Shown here: positions 26,648 to 51,570 of the stretch, in pieces
How the letters are laid out: every line of letters begins with the position of its first letter
Numbering within the stretch: position 1 is the first letter of the stretch
NCBI RefSeq assembly: GCF_000337915.1
Contig: NZ_AOJE01000057.1
Location: forward strand, 178,645 to 230,214
DNA from: Halorubrum saccharovorum DSM 1137
GTDB taxonomy: Archaea; Halobacteriota; Halobacteria; Halobacteriales; Haloferacaceae
Length of the DNA stretch: 51,570 bases
Direction of reading: 5' to 3'
The notes under the pieces: model-generated
Databases searched by the model: none
Told to the model about the DNA's origin: nothing
What the model saw: only the letters and a program-made list of their open reading frames with translations
Translations under genes and position numbers: made by a program

Positions 26648-26720
26648 GCCCGGATGGTGTAGTGGCCCATCATACGACCCTGTCACGGTCGTGACGCGGG
26701 TTCAAATCCCGCTCCGGGCG
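26648..26720 (+). tRNA. tRNA-Asp (GTC)
   Basis: 73 nt. The acceptor stem GCCCGGA pairs with TCCGGGC, with discriminator G. The anticodon loop CTGTCAC gives anticodon GTC, and the T-arm is GCGGG-TTCAAAT-CCCGC. No intron and no encoded CCA. Confidence 0.97.
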
Positions 26721-26749
26721 TCCCCACGCTTCGGGGTCTGTCGCTGTTT

Positions 26750-26822
26750 GCCCGGATGGTGTAGTGGCCCATCATACGACCCTGTCACGGTCGTGACGCG
26801 GGTTCAAATCCCGCTCCGGGCG
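26750..26822 (+). tRNA. tRNA-Asp (GTC), second identical copy
   Basis: All 73 nt are identical to the copy at 26648-26720, separated by a 29-nt spacer. It is followed directly by TTTT, a likely terminator. Confidence 0.97.
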
Positions 26823-26939
26823 TTTTCAACGACCAACACGGCGAGCGTAGCGAGCCGTTCGTCGAAAACGGTCGCAAGAGGGTTTGAATCAAGGAGTGAA
26901 GCGAGCGGAACGACTGAGGTTCAAATCCCGCTCCGGGCG
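26823..26939 (+). repeat. tRNA-Asp 3'-end remnant with hairpin
   Basis: Downstream of the second tRNA-Asp, 22 nt of the tRNA 3' end (GGTTCAAATCCCGCTCCGGG plus CG) recur at 26918-26939 with no tRNA body. The segment between contains a hairpin ACGGC/GCCGT with an 11-nt loop (26838-26858). This has the form of an attachment-site remnant. Confidence 0.8.
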
Positions 26940-27047
26940 TATTCTGCCGACGGAAACTACGAGTGAGGAGCGGTGCGAGCCTTCTGGACGCTGACGGGCT
27001 CTCGGAAAAGGCAGCTCCGAAAAACGATCGAACGCGACCGTCCGCCT

Positions 27048-41471: not shown

Positions 41472-41567
41472 ATCCCTGGGAGGGCGGAGTTTTTCGGTCG
41501 CCGATCGGTCGCTGCCGCTGGCAAGTGTTCACCAGATGCCTGCGGCGTCGCCGTCTGTTTCTGATCG

Positions 41568-41774
41568 TCTGGTGGTTCTGGTGACTCTGGTGGTTCTGGT
41601 GGCTCTGGTGGGTCTGGTGGCTCTGGTGACTCTGGTGGGTCTGGTGACTCTGGTGGCTCTGGTGACTCTGGTGGGTCTGGTGACTCTGGTGGCTCTGGTG
41701 ACTCTGGTGGCTCTGGTGACTCTGGTGGCTCTGGTGACTCTGGTGACTCTGGTGGCTCTGGTGACTCTGGTGGC
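41568..41774. repeat. 9-bp minisatellite, 23 units
   Basis: TCTGGTGRN in 23 head-to-tail units, with variants ending GAC, GGC, GGT or GTG, plus a degenerate 24th unit. Because the unit is a multiple of 3 it leaves all frames open, giving (TLVALV) on the plus strand and PES/PEP or QSH repeats on the minus strand. Confidence 0.95.
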
Positions 41775-41961
41775 TCCGGCGACGCCCTCCAAGGCCCCAG
41801 TCGGGAGGTGGGCGCACACTCGTTGCGCGCTTCGGTCGCTCGCGTTGCTCGGCCCCCGGAGTGCTTTCGTCGTCTGCGCCCACCTCTCGACTGCCTCTTT
41901 GAGTCCCGCCACAAACGCACAGCGACCGCACAGCGACCGCGCCTCACGCCTCCCCAGCCTC

Positions 41962-42155: not shown

Positions 42156-42716
42156 TCACCGCCGTCGCAGACCGGCGATCCCGCTTCGACCGCCTCGGAG
42201 CTGCCGGAGCACGGAGAAACGGTTGATCCACAGCTGGTAGGCGCTCGCGGCGGCGAACAGCGCGAGCCCGAGGCTCGTAAGGAGGACGGGATCGACCGCG
42301 GAGACGAGGGGGACGCCGAGCAGCGCCGCGAGCAGGACCGTCAGCGAGGCGACGCCGAGCGCGCGGTACAGCTCCGACCAGGTGACGCCGACGCTCGCGA
42401 CGACCTCGGTGTACAGCGCCACGTCTCGCGCGTGGCGGGACATCTCGATCGTCTGGCTCTCCCGGTCGTATTCGATCACGCCGAGCTCCTCCAGCTTCGG
42501 GAGGTGCGTCTGCACGAGCGAGGTGTACACGCTCTCGCGACAGCGCTTCGGCGGCGGGCTCTCGCCGGTCTCGCGGCCCGCGACCAGCGCCGACAGCTCG
42601 TGGACCGTCACGACGCCGCCGACGCTCCCGAGATGTTCGAGGGCGTGCCGACGGCGCTCGTTCGCGAGGATCGTGTACACCTGTTCGGCCGGAAGGACGT
42701 CTGTTCGGAGCTTCAT
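42156..42716 (-). CDS. Membrane-anchored HTH protein (DUF7344-like), second copy
   Basis: 186 residues. The HTH region (AEQVYTILANERRRHALEHL, VYTSLVQTHLPKLEELGVIE) is clearly related to that of 39645-40196, and two membrane helices (about 118-160) and a basic tail follow. It lies upstream of the SipW/TasA-like cluster on the other strand, sharing a 453-nt divergent region, so it is a candidate regulator of that cluster. That link is inference from position only. Confidence 0.8.
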   Translation of the reverse strand: MKLRTDVLPAEQVYTILANERRRHALEHLGSVGGVVTVHELSALVAGRETGESPPPKRCRESVYTSLVQTHLPKLEELGVIEYDRESQTIEMSRHARDVALYTEVVASVGVTWSELYRALGVASLTVLLAALLGVPLVSAVDPVLLTSLGLALFAAASAYQLWINRFSVLRQLRGGRSGIAGLRRR

Positions 42717-43169: not shown

Positions 43170-44729
43170 ATGAGCAAAGACACAAACGACACAATCGGAC
43201 TCTCGCGGCGCAAGCTGCTCGCCGGCCTCGGCGCCGTCGGCGTGGCCTCCGCGGGTGCGGGACTAGGAACCACGGCGTACTTCAACGACACGGAGGCGTT
43301 CGAGGGCAACACGCTCACCGCGGGCGAACTCGACCTCAAGCTCGACTACCGCGCAACGTACGCGGGCGGCCTCGGCCGCGTCGACGAGATCAACGGCTGG
43401 TACAGCGACGAGGGTCCCGGAGAGCCCTTCAATGTCGTCGAGGAGGAGGACGGCGTCTACCTCATCGGCGAGGTCCCGAACATCGACGAGGGCGAGTGGC
43501 CCGACGTCGTGCAGGAACGCGACTTCTGTGCGCCCGACGTGGGCCTGATCAACGGCGACCAGATCCCGGTCTTCGCGCTCGATGACGTGAAGCCCGGCGA
43601 CTGCGGCGAGGTGACGATCAGCCTCCACATCTGTGACAACCCCTCGTGGGTGTGGATGAACGGCGAGGTGACCGCGGACGACGAGAACACCGTCTCCGAG
43701 CCCGAGGCGGGCGCGGACGGCGAGGGCAACGCGCTCGGCGACGACGCCGACGGCCCCATCTCCGGCGAGGGCGAGCTCGCCGATGCCATCGACGTGACGA
43801 TGTGGTACGACGAGGACTGCGACAACGTCTACGAGCCCGGAAGCGAGAGCGGCGGCCCGCTCTGCGTCCAGATCGTGCTCGACGCCTCGGGGTCGATGAC
43901 GAATGGCGGACGCAACCAACAGGCCATCGACGGCGCGAAGACGCTCGCGGAGAGCATCCTGAACGACGGTCCCGCCGGCAGCAGAGTCGGTGTGACGTTC
44001 TTCAGCGCCGACGGCTACGACGAGAGCGCGCAGGTCATCCAGACGCTGACCGACGACCTCTCCCTCGTCGTCGGTGCGATCGACACGCTCCCCGCCGACG
44101 GCGATTCGACCGCCATCGGTGAGGGCATCTTGGCCGCCCAGGGTGACCTCGAAGACTGCGAGGAAGGGGAATCGCCCACGATGGTCGTGTTGACCGACGG
44201 TGGGAACAACGCGGGGACGGACCCCACCACGGCCGCCACCACGGCCAAGGGCGAGGGGACCACCATCTACGCGCTCGGTGTGGGTGGTGCGCAGGTCTCG
44301 ACGCTCAACGCCATCTCCAGCAACCCCGACGAGGACTACGTCTTCTTCGCCAGCGACGACGGCGCGCTCGAACAGGCGTTCGGCCTGATCGGCGAGACGC
44401 TCCTCGGCGAGACCATCATCTTCGAGGGATCCCTCGCGGGCGCGATGGCTGAGCTTGAGGGCGGCCTCCTGCTCGACGGCAACCGCGCCACGGAGATGAC
44501 GGATCCCTTCGAGGGCGGCCTGACCCAGTGTATCGGCTTCGAGTGGTGCCTGCCGGCAGAGGTCGGTAACGAGGTCCAGACGGACTCCGTCGCCTTCGAC
44601 CTCGGCTTCTACGCCGAGCAGTTCCGGCACAACGAGCAGGTCGGCGCGCCGAACGGGACCGCACCTAACGGCACGGCGCCCAACGGCACGGCTCCCAACG
44701 GCACGGCGCCCAGCGAGCCTGGGCAGTAA
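43170..44729 (+). CDS. Exported TasA-like protein with inserted VWA domain
   Basis: 519 residues. The N-terminus has a twin arginine (GLSRRKLLAGLGAVG, 11-25) and a SipW/TasA-like hydrophobic end AYFNDTEAFEGNTLTAGELD (37-54). The TasA-like domain continues to about 220, with LDDVKPGDCGEVTISLHI. A von Willebrand A domain (about 231-410) follows, with MIDAS residues D238, S240, S242, T314 and D343. The TasA-like domain then resumes (ETIIFEGSLAGAMAELEGGL) and ends at FYAEQFRHNE. The C-terminus is four NGTAP repeats (44652-44711). Eight cysteines include C120, C145, C155, C454 and C460. Likely secreted; a tip or fibre subunit is inferred. Confidence 0.82.
   Translation: MSKDTNDTIGLSRRKLLAGLGAVGVASAGAGLGTTAYFNDTEAFEGNTLTAGELDLKLDYRATYAGGLGRVDEINGWYSDEGPGEPFNVVEEEDGVYLIGEVPNIDEGEWPDVVQERDFCAPDVGLINGDQIPVFALDDVKPGDCGEVTISLHICDNPSWVWMNGEVTADDENTVSEPEAGADGEGNALGDDADGPISGEGELADAIDVTMWYDEDCDNVYEPGSESGGPLCVQIVLDASGSMTNGGRNQQAIDGAKTLAESILNDGPAGSRVGVTFFSADGYDESAQVIQTLTDDLSLVVGAIDTLPADGDSTAIGEGILAAQGDLEDCEEGESPTMVVLTDGGNNAGTDPTTAATTAKGEGTTIYALGVGGAQVSTLNAISSNPDEDYVFFASDDGALEQAFGLIGETLLGETIIFEGSLAGAMAELEGGLLLDGNRATEMTDPFEGGLTQCIGFEWCLPAEVGNEVQTDSVAFDLGFYAEQFRHNEQVGAPNGTAPNGTAPNGTAPNGTAPSEPGQ
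44652..44711 (+). repeat. 15-bp coding repeat, NGTAP four times
   Basis: Four 15-bp units at the end of the first cluster gene each encode Asn-Gly-Thr-Ala-Pro, four N-glycosylation sequons in a row. Confidence 0.95.
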
Positions 44730-44866
44730 TCGACGTCTGACGGTCTCGGAAGCCACGCGCTTCCCCCGGGCGAGTCTCGCCCGGTTCCCGGTTCGGCGCC
44801 CATCGCGGGCGGCCGACGCGGCGGTTCGCGACCGCCGCCGGGAGTTCCCTTCGGGGATGACACACA
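44730..44866. promoter_or_regulatory. Intergenic leader with two hairpins
   Basis: 137 nt. GCGGCGGT/ACCGCCGC hairpin (44818-44838, 5-nt loop) and CCC-TTCG-GGG (44847-44856) end about 10 nt before the next ATG. A similar pair precedes the third cluster gene. Confidence 0.6.
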
Positions 44867-46225
44867 ATGAACGACGACACAATCGGACTATCGCGGCGCA
44901 AGATGCTGGTCGGACTCGGGGCCGTCGGCGTGGCCTCCGCGGGCGCGGGACTCGGAACCACGGCGTACTTCAACGACACCGAGTCGTTCGACGACAACAC
45001 CCTGACAGCCGGCGAGCTGGACCTGTTTGTCCACGTCGACTACTCGGAGGACCAGGGCAGCTACGCGCAGTGGTCGACTCCCGACGGCACCTTCATCGAC
45101 GGTAACGTCGTGGGCGGCGACCAAGAGGAGGGCGAACCCCTCAGTATCGAGGTCTCCGACCTCAAGCCCGGCGACTCGGGCGAGGGCGAGTTCTGTTTCT
45201 CGATCGTCAACAACCCGGCGTATCTGTGGATGTGCGGCGCGCTGACGGAGAACAACGAGAACGGGCAGAACGAGCCCGAGGCGGCCGTCGACACAACCGG
45301 CGGCGATCCCGGCGAGGGCATGGGCGAGCTCGCCGACGCGATGCAGGTGTCGGTCTCGTACTGTACCGACGACGGTGAGGGAGAAAACATCGTCGGCGAG
45401 GAGATCGTCTCCGGTTCGCTCGCGGACGTGATGGTCGCGCTTCGCGCGGGCGTGCCCCTGTACGGCGACGGGATGCCCGACGCGCCGATCGAGAACCGCG
45501 TCCCCTTCGAGGGCGTCGACGCGCCCTTCGATGACGACGAACCGGTCATCGCCGAGCAGTGCGTCTGCTTCGAGTGGTGGCTCCCGACGAGCGTCGAAAA
45601 CGAGGTTCAGACCGACTCCGTCGCCTTCGACTTCGAGTTCTACGCGGAACAGGCCCGCCACAACGACGGGACGACCAACCCCTGCGTCGACGAGGAGTAC
45701 GCGGCCGACTACGTCAACCCCGACGGGATCGACCAGCCCATCCCCGACGGCGTCGCCCGCGTGGGCGTCTCCTACGGCGATGACGACGTCGTCTACGCGG
45801 TCACGTTCGACGAGCCCGCCGGCAGCCAGTACAGCCTCGCCGACCCGTCCTTCGCGAGCACGAACTTCTCGCTGCCGTTCGACGCTGACAACGACGGGAC
45901 CTACGACTTCCAGGTCGCCTGGAACGCGCAGGGCAACGACGAGTTCCTGTACTCCGGGGTCGAGACCGGTCCGAACTGGGAGAAGGACACGTCGACCGGA
46001 TGGTCGGCGCTCCCGGCGGGCATCACCGCGGTCAAGTCCGGCTCGCAGGCGCTCATCAGCGTCCCGCGCTCGACGCTCGAGGCCAACGACGACAACTACG
46101 TCTTCGGCTTCAACGCCGGCGCCGGCGGCGAACAGCCGTCCGTGAGCGTCCCGACCGGCGGGCCCTACTCCCCCGTTAACAACTTCACGTCCAGCCAGAA
46201 CGGCCAGTCGACGACGCTCCAGTAG
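44867..46225 (+). CDS. Exported TasA-like protein with extra C-terminal domain
   Basis: 452 residues. The N-terminus has GLSRRKMLVGLGAVG, then AYFNDTESFDDNTLTAGELD, the same twin-arginine plus SipW-type signal as the preceding protein. The TasA-like domain (about 35-270) contains DLKPGDSGEGEFCFSIVNNP and GSLADVMVALRAGVPLYG and ends FYAEQARHND. It has no VWA domain: the two halves that flank VWA in its neighbours are here joined by about 15 residues. A β-rich domain of about 180 residues (271-452, RVGVSYGDDDVVYAVTFDEP, FDADNDGTYDFQVAWN) follows; I do not recognise it. Six cysteines. Likely the main or a structural subunit. Confidence 0.8.
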   Translation: MNDDTIGLSRRKMLVGLGAVGVASAGAGLGTTAYFNDTESFDDNTLTAGELDLFVHVDYSEDQGSYAQWSTPDGTFIDGNVVGGDQEEGEPLSIEVSDLKPGDSGEGEFCFSIVNNPAYLWMCGALTENNENGQNEPEAAVDTTGGDPGEGMGELADAMQVSVSYCTDDGEGENIVGEEIVSGSLADVMVALRAGVPLYGDGMPDAPIENRVPFEGVDAPFDDDEPVIAEQCVCFEWWLPTSVENEVQTDSVAFDFEFYAEQARHNDGTTNPCVDEEYAADYVNPDGIDQPIPDGVARVGVSYGDDDVVYAVTFDEPAGSQYSLADPSFASTNFSLPFDADNDGTYDFQVAWNAQGNDEFLYSGVETGPNWEKDTSTGWSALPAGITAVKSGSQALISVPRSTLEANDDNYVFGFNAGAGGEQPSVSVPTGGPYSPVNNFTSSQNGQSTTLQ

Positions 46226-46416
46226 GACGCGAAATCGGCGCGACACCGAGCAGACACGGTCACCGGGACCGACCGCGGCTCCGTCGGCCTTCGGGCCGCG
46301 AGGTCGCGGGTTCCCACAGCGGCTGACGGCGGTTCGACTCCGCCGGTGGGCCTCCCCTCGGGGAACGACCGACTAACGAATTCGGGGTTCGTCCCCGTAC
46401 ACTCATACACACACCA
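46226..46416. promoter_or_regulatory. Intergenic leader with hairpins
   Basis: 191 nt. CGGCGG-TTCGACT-CCGCCG (46327-46345) and CCC-CTCG-GGG (46354-46363) correspond in order and spacing to the pair at 44818-44856. A GGCC-TTCG-GGCC hairpin is at 46286-46297. The first stem-loop imitates a tRNA T-arm, but no tRNA can be folded around it. Confidence 0.55.
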
Positions 46417-48099
46417 ATGACAGACGACAAACTCACCGCACTCACCCGACGCAAGCTGCTCTCGGGCCTCGGAGCTGTCGGCGTCGCGAGCGCCGGCGCG
46501 GGCCTCGGCACCACCGCGTTCTTCAACGACCGGGAGGGGTTCGAGGGCAACACGCTGAGCGCCGGCGCCTTCGAGCTCCGGATGGACTGGCAGCAGAGCT
46601 ACTACACCGGCCTCCCCGGACAGGACCCCGACGACCACACGACGTGGGCGCCGGTGAACGCGTACCCGGACCTGGACGGCGACGACCGACAGGACCCGAT
46701 CTACGCGCGCTATCAGCTGACTGAGGATCCGACGCTCCTCGGGCTCCCGGCGAACGCCGACCCCGAGGCGATCGAGGCGGCCTACCGCGGGCAGTTCGCG
46801 AGCTTCGAGGGCACCGACGGCAGCGGGAACCACGAGTTCGTCGGCCCCGTCATCGACCTCGACGACGTCAAGCCGGGTGACCGCGGCGAGATCACGATCA
46901 GCAAACACGTCTTCGACAACCCGGGCTACCTCTGGCTCAACGCCGGCGGCGTCGAGGCTCAGATCGGCGCGCTCAACGATCCCAAACGCGAGGCGCTCAA
47001 AGAGATCCACGGGGATCTCCCCGACGCGGACCTCGTCGCCGCGGCGGAGGCGGAAGAGCAGCTCGCGAAGGAGATCGAGGCGACGCTGTGGTACGACGAC
47101 GACTGCGACAACTTCCTCGACGAGGGAAGCGACACCTGCATCCAGTTCGTCGTGGACAACACCGACTCGATGGGGAGCACGGCGCCGTTCTCCGGCGATC
47201 TGAAGGACGACCTTCTGATCGACGCGATCGAAACGTACATCGGTCGGTTAGACACCGCTGACGGCGCGGAGTCCGCCGACGGCGACACTGCTCCCTTCAG
47301 CGTCGGACTGACGAACTGGACGACGGTCGCGGACACCGTCCTTCTGCCGACGAGCGACGTGTCGGACATCGTCGGCGTCGACGGCGGGAACTACGCGGAT
47401 TCGACGGGACTGCAGACGATCGATTACCAGTCGCTCGACGCTGGGACCGACATCCCGGTGGCGATCGAAGCCGGCGCGGACGCGCTCGCCGAGTGCCCCG
47501 AAGCGGACAGCCGGATAATGGTCCTGATCACGAACGGGATCAACGTTGAGACGAGTGATTTCCTCGCGGCGGCCAGCGATAACCTTCGACAGAACGGCGG
47601 CGAAATCGATCGGTTCCTCATCGTCGGCTTCGGTCCCGAGGAGGATGACGCCGACACGCTCGCTCAGATCGCCACCCTCCCGGGCGATCACAAGTTCATG
47701 CACGTGACCGACGCCGATATCGATCAGGCGATCAACGGCCCCGCGGATCCGAGTACCGATCCCGTCACGAGCGTCGCCGAGGAGATCGGTTTCACCGCGG
47801 ACGGCGAACAGGTGATATTCGAGGGGTCGCTGTACGACCTGCTCGGCCCCCAAGACGGGATCGCCGGCGGCTACCCGCTCGACGCGGACCGCAACCGCGA
47901 GGGGCGGCAGTGCTACCCCAACTCGGACACGCGCTGTATCGCGCTGGAGTGGCACCTCCCCTACGAGGTCGGCAACGAGATCCAGGGGGACTCGATCGTC
48001 TTCGACCTGGAGTTCTACGCCGAGCAGTGCCGCCACAACGACGGGTCGGACAACCCGTTCGAGCTCGACGGCGACGCCGATCCCCAGACGCCCGCGTAG
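46417..48099 (+). CDS. Exported TasA-like protein with inserted, degenerate VWA domain
   Basis: 560 residues. The signal region is TRRKLLSGLGAVGVA, then AFFNDREGFEGNTLSAGAFE. The TasA-like domain includes DLDDVKPGDRGEITISKHVF. A VWA-like domain (about 240-455) begins CIQFVVDNTDSMGS, so the MIDAS reads D247-x-T249-x-S251; the later acidic residue is replaced by Asn (ITNGIN, N373). Metal binding may therefore be altered. The TasA-like part resumes at EQVIFEGSLYDLL and ends FYAEQCRHND, with CIALEWHLPYEVGNEIQGDS before it. An acidic tail follows. Same architecture as the first cluster gene. Confidence 0.82.
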   Translation: MTDDKLTALTRRKLLSGLGAVGVASAGAGLGTTAFFNDREGFEGNTLSAGAFELRMDWQQSYYTGLPGQDPDDHTTWAPVNAYPDLDGDDRQDPIYARYQLTEDPTLLGLPANADPEAIEAAYRGQFASFEGTDGSGNHEFVGPVIDLDDVKPGDRGEITISKHVFDNPGYLWLNAGGVEAQIGALNDPKREALKEIHGDLPDADLVAAAEAEEQLAKEIEATLWYDDDCDNFLDEGSDTCIQFVVDNTDSMGSTAPFSGDLKDDLLIDAIETYIGRLDTADGAESADGDTAPFSVGLTNWTTVADTVLLPTSDVSDIVGVDGGNYADSTGLQTIDYQSLDAGTDIPVAIEAGADALAECPEADSRIMVLITNGINVETSDFLAAASDNLRQNGGEIDRFLIVGFGPEEDDADTLAQIATLPGDHKFMHVTDADIDQAINGPADPSTDPVTSVAEEIGFTADGEQVIFEGSLYDLLGPQDGIAGGYPLDADRNREGRQCYPNSDTRCIALEWHLPYEVGNEIQGDSIVFDLEFYAEQCRHNDGSDNPFELDGDADPQTPA

Positions 48100-48289
48100 T
48101 CCCGCGCCCGCTGCGGGTGACCGCGCGACGCTCGGCGCGGCGTCCCCGACGGGCCGCTACCTCACCGGTAGGGGATTCCTGTCGCGGGGTTCGACCGACC
48201 GATCGCTCGGGTAGGTGACCCATACATACGTGCACGGGCAGCGAGGAGAGATACCGACGACCGGCCGTTCGGAGCCGCAACGACACACA
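48100..48289. promoter_or_regulatory. Intergenic region before the fourth cluster gene
   Basis: 190 nt. A GC-rich stretch (48100-48160) is followed by CATACATACG and GAGGAGAG (48243-48250). A promoter or ribosome-binding site is possible, but the GAGGAGAG lies about 40 nt before the chosen ATG. Confidence 0.3.
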
Positions 48290-49054
48290 ATGACACAGAA
48301 AGAATCAGGACTCACGCGGCGGGAGGCGCTCGCGGGCGCCGGAGCCATCGGCTTCGCGACCCTCGGGGCCGCCTCCGGACGGTCGACGGGAACGGACCGC
48401 TGGGACGAGTACTCGGCGTACACGTACGCCCAGTCGGACACGTCCCCGAATCTGCTCGTCGGGTGGCGGCGCACGGAGAACGGGACGCTCGTCGATTCGA
48501 GCCCGGTCGGCGCGGTCGACGACGTCGAAACGGCCGGGATCCGGCTCTTCGACGTCGACAACGCGCTGCCGCACGATCACGGCACGGCCAGCGTCGGCCT
48601 CCGGCTCGAGGACCCCGAGGACACCGCCCGCGTGTGGCTGCGGATCGACCCGCACCTCGACGGTGTCGACGCCGCGGGCGCCGCGCTCGCGGAGCGTCTC
48701 AGGCTCACGGTCCGACACGACACCGGGATATTCGGGATCGGCAGCTGCGGCGGCGCCGAGGGCGAGTTCGCGGCCGCCGGGGGGATGATCGCCGACGAGA
48801 CGACGCTTGCGGACATCGACGGGTCCGCGCTCGCAGACGGGGTCGAACTGCGTCCGGGGATCCTCGGTGACGGCTGCCTCGGTCCCGGCGAGCAGCGCTG
48901 CCTGACCTTCGCGTGGGAGTTCGACGGCGAGGGCGGCAACGCCGGGCAGGGCGGTGCGGTCGATTTCCTCGTGGAGTTCGCCGTGGTCGACTGCGACGAC
49001 GATGGGAACCCCTTCCCGCGGAGCGACTCGACCGACACCGAGGTGTCCGAATGA
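48290..49054 (+). CDS. Exported SipW-type protein, small
   Basis: 254 residues from the ATG at 48290; the frame is open upstream to 48215 but the conserved start is MTQKESGLTRREALAGAGAIG, with a twin arginine. The region after the hydrophobic segment (SAYTYAQSDTSPN) is a diverged form of the AYFND signal end. A β-rich acidic domain follows with ASVGLRLEDPEDTARVWLRI, then GIGSCGGAEGEF, GCLGPGEQRCLTFAWEF and VDFLVEFAVVDCDD. The ordering QRCLTFAWEF...VDFLVEF parallels CIGFEWCLP...VAFDLGF in the larger members, so it is probably a reduced relative. It overlaps the next gene by 4 nt. Confidence 0.75.
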   Translation: MTQKESGLTRREALAGAGAIGFATLGAASGRSTGTDRWDEYSAYTYAQSDTSPNLLVGWRRTENGTLVDSSPVGAVDDVETAGIRLFDVDNALPHDHGTASVGLRLEDPEDTARVWLRIDPHLDGVDAAGAALAERLRLTVRHDTGIFGIGSCGGAEGEFAAAGGMIADETTLADIDGSALADGVELRPGILGDGCLGPGEQRCLTFAWEFDGEGGNAGQGGAVDFLVEFAVVDCDDDGNPFPRSDSTDTEVSE

Positions 49055-50136
49055 CCCGCGGAGGGGACGGAGCGGGGCGTCCGAGCGGCCTGAGCCGGCG
49101 CCAACTGCTCGCCGGGATCGGCGGCGTCGGCGCCGTCGGGATGGCGAGCGGGCTCGGCACGGGGGCGTACCTCTCGGACCGCGAGACGTTCCCGGACAAC
49201 GTCTTCGGCGCCGGCGAGGTCGGGCTGACGGTTGACGGCGACCTCACGACCGGGACCGTCACCGTCGGTCCGTTCGCGGTCGATCGGACGACGTTCGACG
49301 ATCGCCCCGACCCCGAGACGTTCGAGGTGGGCGCGTCGGCGAACCCCGTCCGGGTGTGGCTCGCGACGGAGTGCCCGGACGGCGACCGGCTGGGGAACGC
49401 CCTCGAAGTCGAGGTCGTCGTCGACGGCGAGTCGCTGACGGACGGCTACCTCCCCCTGGCCCAGGCCGAGCGCCGCCTCGCGACCGGGCGGCGGATCGAC
49501 GCCGACTGTCTCGAGGCCGGCCCCGACGGCGACCCGATCGTCGTCGAGGTCTCCCCGTACCTCCCGGCCGACTCGCCCGACGTGGGCGGGGAGACGACCG
49601 ACCTGACGTTCCGGCTGTACGCCGAGCAGTGTCGGCACGTCTCGGAGGCGGAGGCGGACGCGCCGGGGGCGAATCCCTTCGCGGAGGTCGCCTGCGAGCA
49701 GACGTGCGTCCCCTGCGAGGACGAGAACGACGTCAGGGTCGGATCGCTCACGCTCCGGTACCTCGGCGACGACCCGGCGACCGTGGTCGTCGTCGCCACC
49801 GGCGGCGGTGCCGGCGGAAAGGGCACCGGCGGTACCGTCGTCTTCGACGACGAGGTGGCCCCCGACGGGACCTTCGTGGTCGACGGAGCCGCGTCGCCAA
49901 CCGGCGATCCGGAGTGGATCGGTCCGAACATCTACGTCGACGACGGATCCGGGGGAGCCGGAGGCAACGGAAACGGAAATAACGGGAACGGAAACGCCGG
50001 AAACAGTCCCGCGGGCGTCAACATCCACACGAGCTGTTCGGTGTCGCTCGCGCCCGGCGACATCTACGGTGACTTCGAGATCGTCTCGATGGCGACTACG
50101 GACGGCGACCCGATCTGCGGCTCGGAGGAACTCTGA
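49051..50136 (+). CDS. Exported TasA-like protein with C-terminal β domain
   Basis: 361 residues from the ATG at 49051, which overlaps the previous stop (ATGA). The signal is GLSRRQLLAGIGGVG, then AYLSDRETFPDNVFGAGEVG. The TasA-like domain runs to about 200, ending FRLYAEQCRHVSEA. Two Cys pairs follow (VACEQTCVPCED), then a separate domain (226-361: SLTLRYLGDDPATVVVVATG, Gly/Asn-rich loop, VNIHTSCSVSLAPGDIYGDF). I recall the IHTSCS..L..GD.YGDF motif from C-terminal domains of secreted bacterial and archaeal proteins (DUF7467-like). The stop overlaps the signal peptidase start by 1 nt. Confidence 0.8.
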   Translation: MTRGGDGAGRPSGLSRRQLLAGIGGVGAVGMASGLGTGAYLSDRETFPDNVFGAGEVGLTVDGDLTTGTVTVGPFAVDRTTFDDRPDPETFEVGASANPVRVWLATECPDGDRLGNALEVEVVVDGESLTDGYLPLAQAERRLATGRRIDADCLEAGPDGDPIVVEVSPYLPADSPDVGGETTDLTFRLYAEQCRHVSEAEADAPGANPFAEVACEQTCVPCEDENDVRVGSLTLRYLGDDPATVVVVATGGGAGGKGTGGTVVFDDEVAPDGTFVVDGAASPTGDPEWIGPNIYVDDGSGGAGGNGNGNNGNGNAGNSPAGVNIHTSCSVSLAPGDIYGDFEIVSMATTDGDPICGSEEL

Positions 50137-51254
50137 TGAACAACCCACTCACATCACCACGGACCAGGAAGGCGGCGAACGTACTCGGGATCGTCCTGCT
50201 GATCGCCGTCGTCGCCCCGTTCGCGGTGTACGCGGCACCGGAGATCGTCGGCGCGGACGAGAGCTTCGTCGTGCTCACGCCGAGCATGACGCCGGCCATC
50301 GCGCCGGGGGACGTGGTTGTCGTCGCCGAGCGCGATCCGGCGGCAGTCGCCGAGGGAGACGTGATCACGTTCGCTCGCGGCACGGGCGACGTACCGGTGA
50401 CGCACCGCGTGATCGACGTCGTCGACGAGGGCGGGACCCTCGCGTTCGAGACGATGGGCGACGCCAACGAGGGGCCGGACCCCGGGCTCGTCCCCGCGGG
50501 GAACCTCGTCGGCGTGGTGACGCTCACGATCCCGTACATCGGGTACGTGATCCAGTTCGCGGGCACGCAGGTCGGGTTCGTCGCGCTGGTGTTGCTCCCC
50601 TTCGGCCTGCTCGCGGTCACGGAGGTCTGGTCGATCGTCCGGGGCCGCGACGACTCGGAGTCGCCGGCCTCGCCGACCGCGGAGGCGGCGGCCGCGGGCG
50701 AACCGGACGCGACGCCCGGCGCGGCCGCCGCGGTCAGCGCGTCCAACGCGTCCGATGCGTCCGACGCGTCCACTGCGACCGGATCCGGGGGCGTCTCCGT
50801 CGACGCGGTCGGCGGGGCGGCCGCGGTGCTCGCGGCGTTCGCCCCCTACGCCGTCTACGTCGCGTTCGAGGTTCGCACCGCCGTCGCGATCGCGATCGCG
50901 GTGGGCGCGTCGACGCTCCTGCTCGGCGCGCTCGCGGTGTGGGTCCCGGCCAGCGGCGTCCTCGACCGCGGGGGATCGGCCGCCGACCGGCCCGGGGACG
51001 GGGACGCCCCCAGTCCGGACCGGGGCGCGACCGCCACCGAGGAACCCGCGTCCGGGGCCGACTGGGAGTCGCCCGACGTGGTCGAGGGGCCCGAGGGTGC
51101 TCGGGAGGGCACCGACGACCAGCCGGCCATCGCCGACGGAGCGTCCGAGACGGGCGACGCTCCCGCCCCGGCCGCGGCGGTCGACGCGCCGGCACCGGCT
51201 CCGCCGACCGCGCCGCCGCCGACGCGGCCGGACGGCGCCGGGGAGGGAGACTGA
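50136..51254 (+). CDS. Signal peptidase I, SipW/ER type, with C-terminal membrane extension
   Basis: 372 residues. Membrane helix about 17-34; catalytic Ser50 in LTPSMTPAIAPGDVVVV; His90 in VPVTHRVIDVV takes the role of the bacterial lysine, as in SipW and ER-type enzymes; the later Asp-containing TMGDANEGPDP box is present. A second membrane helix is at about 144-164. Unlike simple SipW there is an Ala/Ser linker, two more hydrophobic helices (about 230-275) and an acidic Pro-rich tail. TGATG overlaps with both neighbours suggest tight co-expression with its probable substrates. Confidence 0.9.
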   Translation: MNNPLTSPRTRKAANVLGIVLLIAVVAPFAVYAAPEIVGADESFVVLTPSMTPAIAPGDVVVVAERDPAAVAEGDVITFARGTGDVPVTHRVIDVVDEGGTLAFETMGDANEGPDPGLVPAGNLVGVVTLTIPYIGYVIQFAGTQVGFVALVLLPFGLLAVTEVWSIVRGRDDSESPASPTAEAAAAGEPDATPGAAAAVSASNASDASDASTATGSGGVSVDAVGGAAAVLAAFAPYAVYVAFEVRTAVAIAIAVGASTLLLGALAVWVPASGVLDRGGSAADRPGDGDAPSPDRGATATEEPASGADWESPDVVEGPEGAREGTDDQPAIADGASETGDAPAPAAAVDAPAPAPPTAPPPTRPDGAGEGD

Positions 51255-51570
51255 TGCCCGTGAACCGCGGGCTCGTCGGCGTCCTCGCCCTCGCCGTGTT
51301 GGTGTGGGGCGTCGCCTTCGGCGGGGGGCTCACCGTCGCCGTCCTCACGTCGAGCGCTAACGTGACGACGACGTTCGAGACGGTCGACGAACTCGCCTCG
51401 ATCGACCAGCCGAGCGGCGACGATCTCACCGCCGCGACCGGCTCCGACGGAAACGGGACGAACGGTACCGCGCCGTCCGGGAACGGTACCGCACCGTCCG
51501 GGAACGGTACCGCACCGTCCGGGAACGGTACCGCACCGTCCGGGAACGGTACCGCACCGTCCGGGAACGG
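51254..51570 (+). CDS. Membrane-anchored NGTAPSG-repeat protein (5' part)
   Basis: At least 105 residues, running off the window. A signal-anchor/SipW-like helix (GLVGVLALAVLVWGVAFGGG) is followed by VLTSSANVTTTFETVDELAS, then an acidic segment and tandem N-G-T-A-P-S-G heptapeptides. The start overlaps the signal peptidase stop by 1 nt. The repeat is Thr/Ser-rich with one N-glycosylation sequon per unit. It is probably a glycosylated stalk; the C-terminal domain lies outside the window. Confidence 0.7.
   Translation, partial: MPVNRGLVGVLALAVLVWGVAFGGGLTVAVLTSSANVTTTFETVDELASIDQPSGDDLTAATGSDGNGTNGTAPSGNGTAPSGNGTAPSGNGTAPSGNGTAPSGN
51461..51570 (+). repeat. 21-bp coding tandem repeat, running off the window
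   Basis: Units AACGGTACCGCACCGTCCGG plus G, encoding Asn-Gly-Thr-Ala-Pro-Ser-Gly. Five full copies (51461-51565) and the start of a sixth; almost perfect at DNA level, so copy number is likely variable. Confidence 0.95.

Follow-up and report, generated by a model that had tools for sequence, protein, structure and literature searches.

In the 51,570-nucleotide stretch of Halorubrum saccharovorum DSM 1137 analysed here (contig NZ_AOJE01000057.1, positions 178,645 to 230,214; hereafter the window), seven genes lie in a row on the + strand, from position 43170 to beyond the window end: genes A to E, a signal peptidase gene and gene G. We think it likely that this locus encodes a haloarchaeal TasA-type surface fibre with a linked SipW-type peptidase and with tRNA-like elements that divide the subunit cistrons. 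A sequence-only reading of the same DNA had proposed a haloarchaeal surface fibre or adhesin with its own processing enzyme, and that proposal is supported by the fold of the subunits and by the co-occurrence of the peptidase with SipW-dependent signals (tags); fibre formation itself, like the cutting of the RNA, is what we infer. The protein-coding features are as follows.

43170..44729, + strand: gene A, 519 amino acids (aa), twin-arginine (Tat, RR) and SipW signal, TasA-like core with inserted vWA domain, NGTAP tail (TIGR04088, 29.2 bits; PF00092, E = 1.4e-22; AlphaFold2)
44867..46225, + strand: gene B, 452 aa, Tat and SipW signal, plain TasA-like core and C-terminal domain (TIGR04088, 32.9 bits; AlphaFold2 and PDB fold match)
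46417..48099, + strand: gene C, 560 aa, Tat and SipW signal, TasA-like core with degenerate vWA-type insert in which DNTDS replaces DxSxS (TIGR04088, 21.2 bits; VWA, E = 0.0054)
48290..49054, + strand: gene D, 254 aa, RR signal lacking the SipW box, TasA-like core complete (99.9%, E = 1.8e-36 against the B-type profile in hhalign)
49051..50136, + strand: gene E, 361 aa, Tat and SipW signal, TasA-like core ending LYAEQCRH, C-terminal DUF7467 (TIGR04088, 21.0 bits; hhalign, 99.9%, E = 3.5e-34; PF24269, E = 1e-8)
50136..51254, + strand: SipW/archaeal type I signal peptidase, 372 aa, Ser50/His90, C-terminal membrane/cytosolic extension (TIGR02228, E = 2.5e-29; NF046067, E = 2.8e-29)
51254..51570, + strand: gene G (5' part, the gene running beyond the window), hydrophobic Sec-type signal, SipW-like box, disordered tail of NGTAPSG repeats (from sequence; the box model matched 28/44 relatives)

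Five proteins with a TasA-like core

A TasA-like core is common to all five proteins A to E, which are TasA relatives at the level of the fold and stand outside the Bacillus TasA equivalog NF046066. The AlphaFold2 model of B (30 sequences; predicted local distance difference test score, pLDDT, 68.4) has a beta sandwich at residues 52-262, and in a search against 350,542 PDB chains its sole match with E < 0.001 was the TasA fibre 8aur (E = 7.9e-6, probability 1.00), so the model returned the fold relationship supposed by the sequence-only reading and not an unrelated fold. In the model of A (47 sequences, pLDDT 79.3), the vWA domain spans residues 231-412, between core strands 208-213 and 416-421, and the vWA fold was also matched by Foldseek; its metal ion-dependent adhesion site (DASGS) is intact, as it is in 24/24 A-type relatives. 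Because vWA structures swamp the matches, the fold search with A is uninformative on the core of this protein. The VWA match of C fails the Pfam cut-off, and VWA was matched by 30/47 homologues. Relatives also include core-only subunits of 237-295 aa, and in a paralogous locus (L004) one subunit has a choice-of-anchor L domain inside it (NF038133, E = 3.2e-61). D is present once per locus.

Peptidase_M73 scored above its cut-off for B alone, over residues 20-56 alone, and a PDB sequence search with B alone gave no match. When the B-type profile was compared with the PDB, a match to sialoadhesin was judged spurious and otherwise just the signal region of 9p0a aligned. We also dropped a metal-chelatase-type system for the vWA proteins, because the cobaltochelatase match spans the vWA domain alone.

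Export signals and the linked signal peptidase

At the 19-bit cut-off of TIGR04088 (SipW-dependent signal), the AYFND/SipW box is present in four proteins, A, B, C and E; the sequence-only reading had counted five. Gene D gave no TIGR04088 match, and a box hidden Markov model built from the subunits alone matched 0/53 of its relatives, which rules it out as a fifth tagged subunit; the same model matched 28/44 G relatives. The twin-arginine motif is carried by A, B, C and E and by D too, and in related haloarchaeal loci it occurs in 247/267 tagged subunits, 49/53 D proteins and 5/42 tagged G proteins. From this distribution and the matches of the box model, it therefore appears that the subunits are exported by Tat and G by Sec, with the same type of cut site, and that D is without a site. 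The KPGD segment is found in exactly three proteins (A, B and C), as had been read, and the FYAEQxRH end that had been ascribed to four proteins is exact in three, E ending in LYAEQCRH.

With 102 bits against TIGR02228 (cut-off 51.85), the peptidase belongs to the type I signal peptidases that have Ser and His, and no Lys, as catalytic residues; S50, H90, D109 and D115 are invariant in 22 sequences, in agreement with the Ser/His enzyme recognised earlier. It scored 102.1 bits against the Bacillus SipW equivalog NF046067, under the cut-off of 190.

This SipW-type peptidase is dedicated to tagged proteins. In the 3.4 Mb host genome, nine tags exceed the cut-off, and all of them fall either here or in a single paralogous locus; each of the two loci has a peptidase of its own. 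We split the haloarchaeal peptidases of a 60-genome sample of the family at 80 bits, a value chosen after the bimodal scores were seen: tags were present in 35 genomes, the high-scoring SipW class in exactly the same 35 and neither in the remaining 25 (Fisher p = 2e-17). In an order-level replicate of 145 genomes, some of them shared with the family sample, the threshold of E <= 1e-20 was fixed beforehand, and we found both in 49 genomes, the tag only in 3, the peptidase only in 5 and neither in 88 (p = 4e-29); the positive genomes of other families comprised 32 with both, 3 with the tag only and 5 with the peptidase only. Because the genomes are related, these p values overstate independence, the pattern itself being independent of them. 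A SipW-class peptidase is found no more than 20 kb from 127/150 of the tags listed for the family and from 77/83 of those listed for other families, so the linkage expected by the sequence-only reading holds, as opposed to a wide occurrence of such proteins away from the enzyme. A long peptidase (at least 250 aa) accompanies D in 49/59 loci and the short form occurs with D in 1/14; the haloarchaeal locus therefore exists in a complex and a simple version.

tRNA-like elements in the leaders

Between the subunit genes, the following elements were annotated with the covariance model R1, which was built from fibre-gene leaders, and from sequence.

44803..44843, + strand: degenerate tRNA-like element in the A-B leader (R1, 21.3 bits, E = 0.012 over the window and 0.82 over the genome)
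46312..46351, + strand: tRNA-like element in the B-C leader, acceptor-type stem CCCAC/GTGGG, T-arm loop TTCGACT (R1, 47.1 bits, E = 1.4e-8 over the window; second best genome-wide)
46354..46363, + strand: second small hairpin CCCCTCGGGG, 3' of the B-C element (sequence; CCC..GGG within 34 nt in 88/115 elements)

Folding is more favourable in subunit-subunit gaps than in the control gaps (median z -1.38 vs -0.25). The element that recurs between subunit genes combines an acceptor-like stem (ACCCAC/GTGGGT or a variant), a spacer that often contains GG, and a T-stem with the tRNA T-loop TTCGA[CT]T, which is kept in 101/115 elements; a small CCCC/GGGG hairpin lies downstream of the T-loop, and the start codon follows about 42 nt after that loop. 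By junction, the element was found in 101/136 subunit-subunit, 22/52 subunit-D, 1/41 D-E and 1/43 peptidase-G gaps. The consensus comprises 12 bp with 99.8% of cells paired, and in 36 sequences double changes occur at 8/12 pairs, with 46 double-change cells compared with 8.5 after shuffling and 2-4 after sliding, the acceptor count being biased towards structure by a set that was picked for acceptor pairing. Because of this choice, safer evidence comes from the T-stem and from elements with an unusual 3' acceptor strand, which have a matching 5' strand (combined p = 1.5e-9). Acceptor pairing within 16 nt, when counted directly, was barely commoner than in the shuffled control (0.735 vs 0.607) because the DNA is GC-rich, and we rely instead on the unusual-strand test and the covariation counts.

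Over the whole genome, R1 gave just four matches with E < 0.01, all inside the two TasA-type loci and including 46312-46351. Of its 82 matches in 60 genomes, 52 have a SipW-class peptidase at a distance of at most 20 kb, compared with 0.9 expected. Unprompted, the model also picked out, in five contigs, elements that stop 2-3 nt short of 5S rRNA (L150 186-226, L151 1599-1640, L152 243-283, L153 1626-1666 and L154 3023-3064). In Haloferax, tRNase Z cuts the element upstream of 5S rRNA (PMC4326828). In the elements of the fibre loci, as in the 5S-upstream element, an acceptor-type stem stacks on a T-arm whose 7-nt T-loop is conserved, and by analogy the elements of the fibre loci are probably cut by tRNase Z and/or RNase P. 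An Rfam search over the locus returned no family at the gathering score, the B-C leader being weakly like tRNA-Sec (21 bits, E = 2.1).

A tRNA-like element was also seen between the genes of Taf-type multi-gene clusters (GTGAFTSV signal, 9p0a relatives) in L155, L157, L158, L160 and L164; in L157 and L160, a signal peptidase of the lower-scoring class lies near the cluster. Proviral- or plasmid-looking operons with tail/packaging-like genes and methyltransferases contain the element as well (L165 5321-5361, L168 5455-5495, L169 5490-5531 and L163 5508-6751).

Locus organization and conserved gene order

Genes A to D are set apart by gaps of 137 nt (A/B), 191 nt (B/C) and 190 nt (C/D), and the genes that follow overlap by 4 nt (D/E, 49051-49054), 1 nt (E/peptidase, 50136) and 1 nt (peptidase/G, 51254), so that the overlaps of 1-4 nt described by the sequence-only reading are confined to the block from D to G. 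The related loci have the same arrangement, with a median subunit-subunit gap of 118 nt, overlaps in 0/100 of these junctions and overlaps in 31/41 D-E, 39/52 E-peptidase and 42/45 peptidase-G junctions; individual start sites there may be off because the genes were called by a codon-usage script. The divergent gene upstream of the cluster is listed here.

42156..42716, - strand (divergent from the cluster): DUF7344 winged-helix-type protein, 186 aa (PF24035, E = 9.3e-27)

A DUF7344 gene is directly upstream and divergent in 42/54 related loci compared with 14/306 background genes, and its product is a probable regulator of the cluster. Across about 25 genera, the DUF7344 gene (- strand) is followed by two to six genes for tagged subunits and then by one copy of D, by E, by the peptidase and by G. 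The same genome has a paralogous second complete cluster (L004, C12:164000-183900), which includes a separate set of D, E, peptidase and G genes and has a DUF7344-like gene downstream. A short form of the locus is present in Haloferax mucosum, H. larsenii and H. profundi, members of a genus well suited to genetic work, and methanogens and many bacteria have simpler clusters of tagged proteins that include a SipW-type peptidase. From its sequence alone, we take the gene that follows G to encode a ZupT-like transporter (L003).

Gene G

The sequence-only reading had seen in G a repeat-rich anchor protein. The NGTAPSG repeats are indeed present, and the anchor has no support, given that a second transmembrane segment is missing in 43/44 G relatives. 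In G, neither a match to an Ig-like domain family after the N-terminal strand nor a globular domain was found. The tails of its relatives are rich in D, G, T, S and E, and the relatives have 2.68 N-glycosylation sequons per 100 aa compared with 0.70 in the subunits. Probably G is no anchor and resembles a TapA that only donates: it usually has a Sec-type signal and a SipW box together with a disordered tail that can be glycosylated. The C-terminal NGTAP repeats of A closely resemble those of G (NGTAPSG). At the base after window position 51570 (L003, about 8617), within the G repeat, one N interrupts the assembly, so that the frame is unfollowable there and the apparent frame break of G is an assembly gap; the N is likely to mark a collapsed repeat.

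Proposed mechanism and alternative explanations

In the mechanism that we propose, A, B, C and E would fold in the cytoplasm and be exported by Tat with the N-terminal strand still held by the signal helix. The linked SipW-type peptidase would then cut the signal and free this strand, as the signals, the linkage and the co-occurrence suggest, and the freed strand may be donated to the next subunit and complete its jelly roll, a donor-strand exchange to which the TasA fold points. Given their predicted insertions, A and C could show vWA-type heads on the fibre surface for adhesion. D may be the base or terminal acceptor and G a TapA-like initiator or cap; the two suit the two fibre ends, because D has an acceptor domain without a SipW box and G has the box and a donor segment without an acceptor domain. 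On the RNA, tRNase Z and/or RNase P would cut the elements and release the subunit messages singly, and D, E, peptidase and G would stay translationally coupled at a lower, fixed ratio. For the wider proposal that RNA processing at tRNA-like elements sets the subunit ratio in TasA-type (and Tat-fimbria) fibres, with single subunit messages arising from one transcript and with G, D and the peptidase on a coupled, uncut block, we see even chances.

Several observations weigh against a TasA-type fibre with processed cistrons. The alignment of B with 8aur has a high root mean square deviation of 10.6 and a template modelling score of 0.43 by target; such values would be expected if the strands are arranged differently, which is no proof. 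In the models of both A and B the pLDDT of the signal/donor segment is below 50, and for this reason donor-strand exchange is unreadable from them. The TasA equivalog NF046066 reached 16.2 bits against a cut-off of 450, with no TasA sequence match beyond the signal, and the PDB profile search with the B-type profile gave no TasA chain. Among the listed family tags, 23/150 are unlinked to a SipW-class peptidase, and one tag above the cut-off occurs in the Haloferax volcanii control genome, where no TIGR02228 match reached E <= 1e-6. Finally, the single-sequence minimum-energy fold of the B-C leader makes the T-arm and not the acceptor stem (z = -0.51).

The large and variable inserts and C-terminal domains (vWA in 30/47 relatives, choice-of-anchor L, DUF7467 in E) would also suit secreted or surface adhesins that are processed by SipW and never polymerise, the core being a mere scaffold for vWA, choice-of-anchor L and other heads, and polymerisation in our own reading is an inference. 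We nevertheless regard such adhesins as unlikely, because the core fold significantly matches a fibre subunit and nothing else, several head-free, core-only subunits exist, and a donor-only G together with an acceptor-only D is sensible mainly in a polymer. A chance neighbour of the cluster, namely a general archaeal signal peptidase, would be compatible with the breadth of the TIGR02228 family, of which other haloarchaeal members score 48-75 bits; that there are two score classes, the high class only where tags are present, and that 9/9 tags of the genome fall in just two loci, both of which have a high-class peptidase of their own, makes this very improbable. As regards the RNA, the intergenic elements might act as attenuators, mRNA-stability hairpins or ribosome-access switches that resemble a T-arm and undergo no processing. 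Their position about 42 nt upstream of the start codon, the second CCCC..GGGG hairpin that follows and the mild excess of acceptor pairing over the shuffled control would fit such a role, but the conservation of the T-loop, the covariation of the T-stem, the matched unusual acceptor strands and the recovery by R1 of elements directly before 5S rRNA argue against it, and we hold it to be rather unlikely.

Other observations in the window

At 26648-26960, two tRNA-Asp genes are followed by an extra tRNA-Asp 3' half (GGTTCAAATCCCGCTCCGGGCG) at about 26918, a pattern that the integration of an element at a tRNA gene leaves behind. A short tandem repeat at 41536-41800 reads ALVTLVG on one strand and SPEPPE on another and is probably non-coding DNA between genes.

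Comparison with known systems

Archaeal TasA homologues and haloarchaeal Tat fimbriae are already known, and what we read as new is a variant TasA/SipW system with RNA-processed subunit cistrons. With the tapA-sipW-tasA system of Bacillus subtilis (TasA/camelysin fibres; sipW-calY in B. cereus), the locus shares the SipW-type box, the TasA-type fold (8aur) and the linked SipW-type peptidase, as well as a minor SipW-tagged partner with overlapping translation beside the peptidase, which is TapA there and G here (PMC10151520). TapA is processed by SipW, its N terminus AFHDI mimics AFNDI of TasA, its residues 44-57 suffice for biofilm, and tapA and sipW have a stop-start overlap (PMC10151520). 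Unlike the Bacillus system, the haloarchaeal locus has Tat signals on the subunits, several paralogous subunits per locus, vWA or other domains inside the core, a tagless D, tRNA-like elements between cistrons and a G without the Ig domain of TapA, and there is no significant sequence identity past the signal.

The bundling pili (AbpA) of Pyrobaculum calidifontis are cited as archaeal TasA relatives (PMC9674648, PMC10151520). No bundling-pilus chain was among the 50 best fold matches of B listed, no direct comparison with AbpA having been made. We know of no vWA inserts in AbpA bundling pili.

The haloarchaeal Tat fimbriae (TafA/TafC/TafE; PDB 9p0a, 'Pilin') are likewise haloarchaeal surface fibre subunits with Tat signals and a tRNA-like element between genes, but 9p0a aligns with the B profile in the signal region alone, Taf loci have GTGAFTSV signals, and the peptidases near two of them belong to the lower-scoring class (61.3 bits). 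Taf models are present in NCBIfam; none matched A to E at E <= 0.1, whereas the TafE model gave values of 1e-17 to 8e-18 with Taf-like proteins from other loci. The t-element before 5S rRNA in Haloferax is an acceptor-type stem and T-arm minihelix like those matched by R1, and it sits in the rRNA operon, whereas the elements described here lie in mRNA leaders between fibre-subunit genes and are repeated within one operon. In the literature searched, outside which most subscription papers fall, we found no description of a haloarchaeal TasA-type operon or of tRNA-like elements in a TasA-type operon.

The locus would extend the TasA biofilm-fibre system to a large archaeal group. The archaeal system would differ from the Bacillus model in that the proteins are exported folded, via Tat, that the vWA heads are part of the fibre subunit itself, and that donor-only and acceptor-only roles fall to separate proteins. 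If the elements are cut, archaea would split structural-protein operons with tRNA-processing enzymes, as they do for 5S rRNA, and the elements would offer a simple handle on subunit stoichiometry.

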